The notes under the pieces were generated by a model. The model was not told where the DNA came from and searched no databases. It saw only the letters and a list, made by a program, of their open reading frames with translations. Shown here piece after piece: positions 32,724-37,490 of a DNA stretch of 64,000 bases; within the stretch, counting starts at the first letter, position 1; each line of letters begins with the position of its first letter. The position numbers were made by a program, and so were the translations under genes. The DNA comes from Streptomyces lydicus (GTDB taxonomy: Bacteria > Actinomycetota > Actinomycetes > Streptomycetales > Streptomycetaceae): NCBI RefSeq assembly GCF_000717345.1, contig NZ_JNZA01000014.1:186001-250000 (forward strand), read 5' to 3'.

Positions 32724-32730
32724 CACTCTG

Positions 32731-32803
32731 AGCGGACGACGAGGCTCGAACTCGCGACCTCAACCTTGGCAAGGTTGCGCTCTACCAACTGAGCTACGTC
32801 CGC
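32731..32803 (-). tRNA. tRNA-Gly (GCC), copy 1
   Basis: A canonical cloverleaf of 73 nt: GCGGACG acceptor stem, D-loop with GG, anticodon loop TTGCCAA (GCC), TTCGAGC T-loop and discriminator T. CCA is not encoded. The sequence is identical to copy 2 at 36831-36903. Confidence 0.95.
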
Positions 32804-36790: not shown

Positions 36791-36823
36791 AGAAGGCCCC
36801 GGTCGCGATGACCGGGGCCTTCT
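36791..36823. terminator. Terminator after tRNA-Gly copy 2
   Basis: A 14-bp perfect stem (36791-36804 with 36810-36823) and a 5-nt loop, 8 nt beyond the tRNA. The position and sequence parallel the hairpin beside copy 1. Confidence 0.75.
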
Positions 36824-36830
36824 CTTTCTG

Positions 36831-36903
36831 AGCGGACGACGAGGCTCGAACTCGCGACCTCAACCTTGGCAAGGTTGCGCTCTACCAACTGAGCTACGTC
36901 CGC
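36831..36903 (-). tRNA. tRNA-Gly (GCC), copy 2
   Basis: Identical in sequence to the copy at 32731-32803, with anticodon loop TTGCCAA and no encoded CCA. It lies 75 nt downstream of the unusual tRNA-Gly (UCC) gene and is probably co-transcribed with it. Confidence 0.95.
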
Positions 36904-36978
36904 AGGCATCCACTCGGCTTTCACCGAGCGGCGCGACAGCTACTCTACCTGATCCAATGGACTGGTCGAGACTGTCAG

Positions 36979-37050
36979 AGCGGGTGACAGGGATTGCACA
37001 CTGCGCCTCCCCCTTGGAAAGGGGGCGCTCTACTACTGAGCTACACCCGC
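36979..37050 (-). tRNA. Atypical tRNA-Gly (UCC) with GTGC T-loop
   Basis: The cloverleaf has 72 nt: a perfect GCGGGTG/CACCCGC acceptor stem, GCTC/GAGC D-stem, a CCCCC/GGGGG anticodon stem with loop TTTCCAA (anticodon UCC) and discriminator T. It departs from the norm at the elbow. The D-loop is AGTAGTA, lacking the GG pair, and the T-arm reads G53-T54-G55-C56 in place of GTTC. The T-stem pairs only with an irregularity (CAGTG against CCTGT, or GCAG plus a bulged T). G18-Psi55 contact is therefore impossible. CCA is not encoded. A promoter and a canonical tRNA-Gly (GCC) accompany it, so a simple pseudogene is not the only reading. Confidence 0.75.
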
Positions 37051-37100: not shown

Positions 37101-37131
37101 ACTCTAGCTGATCAGTAGGGGTGCTGTGCAA
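37101..37131 (-). promoter_or_regulatory. Promoter of the tRNA-Gly pair
   Basis: On the minus strand, TTGCAC (complement of 37126-37131), 19 bp and TAGAGT (complement of 37101-37106) precede the atypical tRNA by about 50 nt. Confidence 0.45.
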
Positions 37132-37169: not shown

Positions 37170-37490
37170 TTAGCGGTTGGCGGCGTTGAAGGCCTCGTAG
37201 ACCTTCTTCGGGATCCGGCCGCGCGGCGGGACGTCCATCTGGTTCGAGCGGGCCCAGGCGCGGACGGCCGCGGGATCGGGGGTCACCGCGGTCCGGTGGT
37301 ACGCCTTGCCGGACTTCGCCCGCTTGCGGCCGGCCTCGACGAACGGGGCGAGTGCGCCGCGCAGTTTCTTCGCATTGGCGGGATTGAGGTCGATCTCGTA
37401 CGACTTCCCGTCCAATCCGAAGGTGACCGTCTCTGCGGCTGCTCCTCCGTCGATGTCATCGGAGAGCGTTACTACTACGCGCTGCGCCAC
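37170..37490 (-). CDS. Lsr2-family nucleoid-associated protein (paralogue)
   Basis: The 106-residue protein has the two Lsr2 domains. The N-terminal dimerisation part reads AQRVVVTLSDDIDGG with VTFGLDGKSYEIDLN. The C-terminal AT-hook-like DNA-binding part has the pattern IPKKVYEAFNAAN, preceded by VRAWARSNQMDVPPRGRIP; the RGR is the minor-groove-inserting motif. Lsr2 silences AT-rich DNA. S. coelicolor has two such proteins, and the one beside purSQL (SCO4076 as I recall) corresponds to this. The GTG at 37490 follows an AAAGGA sequence. The AT-rich region immediately upstream may be its own target. Confidence 0.93.
   Translation of the reverse strand: MAQRVVVTLSDDIDGGAAAETVTFGLDGKSYEIDLNPANAKKLRGALAPFVEAGRKRAKSGKAYHRTAVTPDPAAVRAWARSNQMDVPPRGRIPKKVYEAFNAANR

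Follow-up and report, generated by a model that had tools for sequence, protein, structure and literature searches.

A glycine tRNA gene with the anticodon UCC and an altered elbow and T-stem lies at positions 36979-37050 on the minus strand of the stretch of DNA analysed here (64,000 nt of the Streptomyces lydicus genome, hereafter the window), and its pattern of conservation indicates that it is retained by purifying selection across most of the host family. A non-ribosomal role is well motivated, because an ordinary tRNA-Gly(UCC) coexists with the odd one and the changes in the latter are nearly invariant throughout the genus. We put at about even the chance that it is a dedicated non-ribosomal carrier of glycine, which would act as the donor for FemX.

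Structure and surroundings of the gene

The tRNA-Gly(UCC) at 36979-37050 is a real gene. ARAGORN types it as tRNA-Gly(UCC) and Rfam as tRNA, with a match to RF00005 of 54.9 bits (E 4.6e-9 in a scan of the window). Read 5' to 3' it runs from 37050 to 36979, with 72 nt up to the discriminator U73 and no encoded CCA. In the covariance alignment 7/7 acceptor pairs and 5/5 anticodon-stem pairs are formed, the D-stem has 4 bp, the D-loop 7 nt and the variable region 4 nt. The anticodon (37016-37018) is invariant in 16 distinct sequences of the genus and was itself required by the exact search pattern used below. Minimum-energy folding without constraints was uninformative, giving a cloverleaf neither for this tRNA nor for the ordinary tRNA-Gly(GCC).

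The departures lie in the D-loop and the T-arm. Set against a normal 7-nt D-loop, the loop AGUAGUA (37031-37037) is numbered A14 G15 U16 A18 G19 U20 A21, with A18 at 37034 followed by G19. The T-arm (36987-37004) has five pairs and one bulge, in the order G-U, C-G, A-U, G-C, bulged U (at 37000), G-C, and closes on the loop UGCAAUC (36992-36998), or U54 G55 C56 A57 A58 U59 C60, where G55 at 36997 replaces U or pseudouridine. Two features of ordinary elongator tRNAs, the GTTCR T-loop and G18G19, are both missing. The 18-55 contact is altered at both partners, and G19 and C56 are retained and could still pair. An earlier note on this DNA had read perfect acceptor and anticodon stems with the anticodon UCC, a GTGC T-loop and a D-loop AGTAGTA without adjacent GG, and the alignment bears out all three. 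Its T-stem "mismatches or bulged T" come down to the bulge, and the elbow that it called defective is altered at 18-55 and not wholly lost, as G19 and C56 remain.

The host genome has 67 tRNAs by Rfam and 68 genes by ARAGORN, and the GTTCR T-loop is absent from two of the latter, the odd tRNA and a tRNA-SeC call that is doubtful. Within the Rfam set of 67 the odd tRNA alone lacks it. The tRNA-SeC call (G000:C13:72140-72237) overlaps another tRNA match, lies outside the Rfam list and is probably false. There are six tRNA-Gly genes (the Rfam set typed by ARAGORN), three with GCC, one with CCC and two with UCC. The earlier note had proposed a search for a canonical tRNA-Gly(UCC), and the second UCC gene (C3:157231-157302) is indeed ordinary, with D-loop AATGGTA and T-arm GTTCGATT. 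An ordinary tRNA-Gly(UCC) is likewise present in 36/36 genus relatives (37/37 with the host), where the D- and T-loops are normal on reading (36/36); the best matches in the 37 genus genomes are 93-100% identical. Because of these ordinary genes, the reading of GGA is independent of the odd tRNA, and the idea that it is the sole GGA reader is ruled out. Copies of the 3' 42-43 nt of the ordinary tRNA-Gly(UCC), 100% identical, occur in four genomes (G009, G019, G020 and G030), about 6-10 kb from the full gene; they resemble attachment sites at which elements have integrated.

Like ordinary bacterial tRNA-Gly(UCC), the odd tRNA has the shared acceptor stem, anticodon, U73 and glycine identity elements; unlike it, it has G55, A18, a bulged T-stem, A51-U63 and frequently C32-G38. 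The four distinct ordinary Gly tRNAs of the host genome carry G49-U65, C50-G64 and G51-C63, the last of these standing where the odd tRNA has A51-U63. C32-G38 is found in one of 53 distinct tRNAs of the host genome versus 9 of the 16 distinct odd sequences; the window's own odd gene has U-A at 32-38, like other Gly tRNAs.

Downstream on the same strand, after a gap of 75 nt, lies an ordinary tRNA-Gly(GCC) gene (36831-36903, minus strand; ARAGORN and Rfam), the start of which follows the odd gene in 37/37 genus loci and after 18/18 of the family odd genes read. The window holds an identical tRNA-Gly(GCC) about 4 kb away on the same strand, the two copies running over 32730-32803 and 36830-36903. 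Upstream, a promoter-like block on the minus strand (37101-37131) was read from the sequence as TTGCAC (37126-37131), 19 nt and TAGAGT (37101-37106), and is conserved as TTGC...GCTAgaGT in an alignment of 37 upstream regions. Between the two tRNA genes, at 36942-36947 on the minus strand, is a second -10-like TAGAGT, which the 37 aligned spacers show as a conserved ATCaGGTAg. A consensus scan of the locus called neither a sigma-70 site nor a terminator, and missed both -10-like blocks. A G+C-rich inverted repeat seen by eye after tRNA-Gly(GCC) (36792-36822, minus strand) is a possible terminator; the terminator scan requires a T run and did not call it. Of the promoter that the earlier note thought to be shared with tRNA-Gly(GCC), the common strand, the 75-nt distance and the conserved upstream block stand, while the block in the spacer makes it uncertain that this is the sole promoter. 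Co-expression of the two tRNAs is plausible. The upstream neighbour (37170-37490, minus strand) encodes a 106-aa protein without an NCBIfam match, which we take to be Lsr2-like, and tblastn synteny gives the conserved gene order purL, purQ, lsr2-like, tRNA pair.

Conservation, proposed origin and loss

The odd-gene region was found in 37/37 genus genomes (own included), giving an alignment set of 37 loci, 42 copies and 16 distinct sequences after three twice-fetched loci were omitted. Two genomes have three tandem copies and one has two. Of 392 genus genomes, 383 contain an exact match to a degenerate motif that spans the D-loop, anticodon loop and T-arm (two or three matches in 13 of the 392 genome rows), and the reversed-pattern control gave 0 in every row. 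Eight of the nine genomes without it have a gene with one change, bringing the motif or a one-change gene to 391/392: the next-to-last acceptor pair changed on both sides (n=2), AGACG for AGGCG (n=4), or C for U at the bulge (n=2; G751 and G828). The ninth (G840) has no odd-gene match at E 1e-14. The earlier note had also considered that the changes might be absent or scattered in relatives, and they turn out to vary hardly at all within the genus.

In the 16 distinct sequences 99.4% of pairing cells pair. Changes on both sides were seen at four pairs (one in the D-stem and three in the anticodon stem) and in 15 cells; in a shuffle test the 15-cell count was reached in 0/500 and the four-pair count in 4/500. 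Pairing fails in 2/16 cells at columns 26-42. The acceptor pairs and all five T-stem pairs are invariant and thus uninformative on covariation. Mean pairwise identity over the 37 loci is 94.4% for the odd tRNA and 92.6% for the GCC gene, and 65.6% and 65.8% for the upstream region and the spacer.

Beyond the genus, a search model built from the 16 odd sequences scores odd genes at about 100-105 bits versus at most 73 for ordinary Gly tRNAs. At E 1e-17 it matched 222/297 genomes and 15/17 genera of the host family, in a search that, like all those of more than 40 genomes, used stricter filters that lose weak matches. Among the 20 of the 75 misses that were listed, 16 belong to genus g27, three to g24 and one to g29. 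A phylum search at E 1e-16 matched 20/396 genomes, 12 of the host's own genus and eight with what on reading is an ordinary tRNA-Gly(UCC). A free pattern for Gly tRNA(UCC) with a GTGC loop matched 12/396 phylum genomes (the reversed control three genomes, once each). All 12 belong to the host's own genus, on which ground we rejected the idea that Gly tRNAs with a GTGC loop had arisen convergently in other parts of the phylum. Neither model nor pattern found the odd form outside the host family in the 396-genome sample. A phage or plasmid origin was likewise rejected: viral contigs lack the exact motif, plasmids gave no match, and the sole match in the phage collection is a tRNA-Gly of Bacteriophage DSS3_MAL1 (MN602268.1:16607-16678) at 78% identity. 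In the same order, genome G037 (family f2) has a second tRNA-Gly(UCC) (L277:4192-4265) with normal GG and GTTC, the anticodon loop CUUCCCG and one additional base where the T-stem joins the acceptor stem; it may be a further glycine tRNA that departs from the usual pattern.

Across the family, 18 odd genes from 17 genomes were read. In genera g15 and g18 the D-loop of the orthologues reads AGTGGYA or AATGGCA and their T-loop GTTC, with G18 and U55 normal, and their T-stem already has the bulge (GCAG(U)G opposite CCTGT) and A51-U63. All the other genera read have A18 and G55. Five records in a named collection show the bulged form with G18 and U55, from Yinghuangia (two), Embleya (two) and Streptomyces sp. 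SID3343 (one). Elsewhere the 5' strand of the T-stem in one genome (G069, g23) is ACA(U)GG, the bulge being shifted by one place and still a single U; acceptor pairs change together, GCAGG facing CCTGC; and A49-U65 is present in g16 and g23. The defect appears to have arisen stepwise, because the Embleya and Yinghuangia orthologues keep G18 and U55 yet carry the bulge.

In genera g24 and g27 the model search of the family did not find the odd tRNA. At the corresponding locus (L272-L274, three genomes) purL, purQ and the lsr2-like gene are in place, with two ordinary tRNA-Gly(GCC) genes in tandem, and each of five g24/g27 genomes read has one UCC and one CCC gene, both ordinary. FemX orthologues are kept (six genomes), at 75-77% identity to the host FemX in g27 and 69-70% in g24. 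In a FemX gene tree, from which the loci of G087 and G013 were omitted (their best FemAB hit seemed to be another copy), g15 and g18 fall outside the remaining genera, with a weak support of 63 for the clade of A18/G55 lineages, and g24 and g27 fall inside, with support of 88 for their clade with the host's genus and g16. The g24 FemX (L197, L188 and L202) sits on a long branch, 0.26. The simplest order would be the bulge first, the change of the elbow later as one event, and loss in g24 and g27.

A proposed role in the cell wall and its rivals

The glycine identity elements that PMC9976931 lists for bacteria (G1-C72, C2-G71, U73, C35 and C36) and for Thermus (C50-G64, G10 and U16) are all found in the odd tRNA sequences. 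GlyRS would be expected to charge the tRNA with glycine, because the bacterial elements are intact. From the bulge we infer a T-stem that would be captured less readily by EF-Tu, and the loosened elbow, joined in many species by C32-G38, would make a poor ribosomal substrate. The earlier note's weakened T-stem contact with EF-Tu is unsupported as it was written: G49-U65, listed as a strong EF-Tu pair in PMC4052509, is kept in 16/16 distinct genus sequences, as is C50-G64, and both are as in ordinary Gly tRNAs. The weak EF-Tu pair A51-U63 is likewise found in 16/16.

The peptidoglycan of Streptomyces has a single-glycine bridge, and the FemX-type addition of this glycine is tied to glycopeptide resistance. 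FemX may take the glycine for the bridge from the odd tRNA. At E 1e-6 the host genome has one FemAB gene (C9:76489-77565), on a different contig from the odd tRNA (C9 vs C14), and the best solved-structure match of its protein is the lipid II:glycine glycyltransferase 6snr (E 3.3e-32). It scores 94 bits against the NCBIfam FemX equivalog, below the cut-off of 500. The FemX of S. coelicolor uses aminoacyl-tRNA (PMC4052509). FemAB is present in 22/22 host-family genomes examined, and also in 10 of the 12 examined outside the family. The earlier note's proposal of a supply of glycine for the wall stands in part: a role outside the ribosome is well motivated and the genome has one FemAB gene, while FemX also occurs in two genera where the tRNA was not found and FemAB genes are common outside the family. 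That g24 and g27 have FemX but yielded no odd tRNA weighs more than any other result against an obligatory link between the two, and we treat the cell wall as a presumed target.

The same anatomy would suit a glycine donor for some other enzyme or regulator that depends on glycyl-tRNA and would be missing from g24 and g27. The persistence of FemX in genomes that yielded no odd tRNA, which means that the two are not strictly tied, favours such a donor. We nevertheless think it unlikely, as no candidate enzyme was identified and the natural-product glycyl transferases described in PMC12945691 serve single pathways, whereas the odd tRNA is genus-wide. About as doubtful is a minor translational reader of GGA and GGG codons with an elbow restored through modification or an A18-G55 contact. 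The UUCCA around the anticodon is exact, within the motif, in 383/392 genomes, and U34 is invariant although only C35 and C36 of the anticodon are among the listed identity elements, a hint that the anticodon is still being read. Acceptor and anticodon stems are also kept, as are G19, C56, U54, A58 and G49-U65 in the 16 distinct sequences. Such a reader would however duplicate the ordinary tRNA-Gly(UCC) of 37/37 genomes, and it fits poorly with a T-stem bulge that persists even when shifted (G069) and with the excess of C32-G38 over the other host tRNAs.

A regulatory or decoy RNA that needs no charging, perhaps one that binds a T-box or gives rise to tRNA fragments, has a precedent in pseudo-tRNAs with roles outside translation, for example tRNA-Other of Bacillus cereus (PMC3399842), but the glycylation elements are kept here, and we consider this reading improbable. 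A glycine T-box ligand in particular was rejected: the one T-box-like match in the host genome, below the curated score, precedes the isoleucyl-tRNA synthetase gene, ileS. Of the T-box-like matches in eight other genomes, three loci were read by eye, two of them ileS-like (L288 and L289) and one before another synthetase-like protein (L297 in G132). We give almost no credence to decay into a pseudogene or to an error of assembly. Of the eight tRNAs in the window this one scores lowest by covariance, and it deviates from the consensus for tRNAs; against this stand its near-universal presence in the genus, constrained sequence and pairing with compensatory changes, and flanks that are far less conserved, which rule out a pseudogene.

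The reading as a FemX donor can be extended into a fuller history, which we hold only tentatively and rate below the donor role itself. The odd tRNA would then be a second, independent cell-wall-only glycine tRNA, arisen in actinomycetes by the bulge and then by G18 to A and U55 to G, and lost in g24 and g27. Its A18/G55 elbow would be rewired rather than broken, usable by GlyRS and FemX and unusable by EF-Tu.

Relation to other unusual tRNAs

Non-proteinogenic tRNA-Gly of staphylococci have a GUGC T-loop and a UCC anticodon. The odd tRNA resembles them in both, with G55 absent from the Embleya and Yinghuangia orthologues. These isoacceptors are attributed to Giannouli 2009 as described in PMC4052509 and PMC9976931. 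According to the former, in three of the five tRNA-Gly isoacceptors of S. aureus the weak pairs A49-U65 and A51-U63 replace strong EF-Tu pairs, and positions 18-19 read UU or CU. The odd tRNA is similarly extra to the ordinary ones, has lost GG at 18-19 and has A51-U63. It differs from this description in having A18 G19, with one G lost, in keeping G49-U65 in the genus (16/16) and in the bulged U of its T-stem; it also adjoins a GCC gene. Because it has neither UU or CU at 18-19 nor A49-U65, two defining features, we do not file it with the staphylococcal type. That it works as those tRNAs do without being a member of their set is plausible in kind, and a separate origin is likely, because the phylum sample yielded the odd form nowhere else. 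There is also a likeness to tRNA-Other of Bacillus cereus, an odd tRNA, reportedly non-translational, the deletion of which changes the cell wall; that RNA differs in its Trp anticodon, poor charging in vitro and position beside an island, and is not a glycine tRNA (PMC3399842).

In two reviews (PMC4052509; PMC9976931) the withholding of a charged tRNA from the ribosome for cell-wall synthesis is described mainly for Staphylococcus. A family-wide and probably independent case with living intermediates would allow comparative tests of which change matters for EF-Tu and which for FemX, and could also show what replaces the odd tRNA where it is missing, in bacteria that are genetically tractable and make many antibiotics. 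The open-access literature searched held no published account of the odd tRNA. Annotation calls for some care, as ARAGORN misses most odd genes and called only six in the 37 genus loci that hold one.
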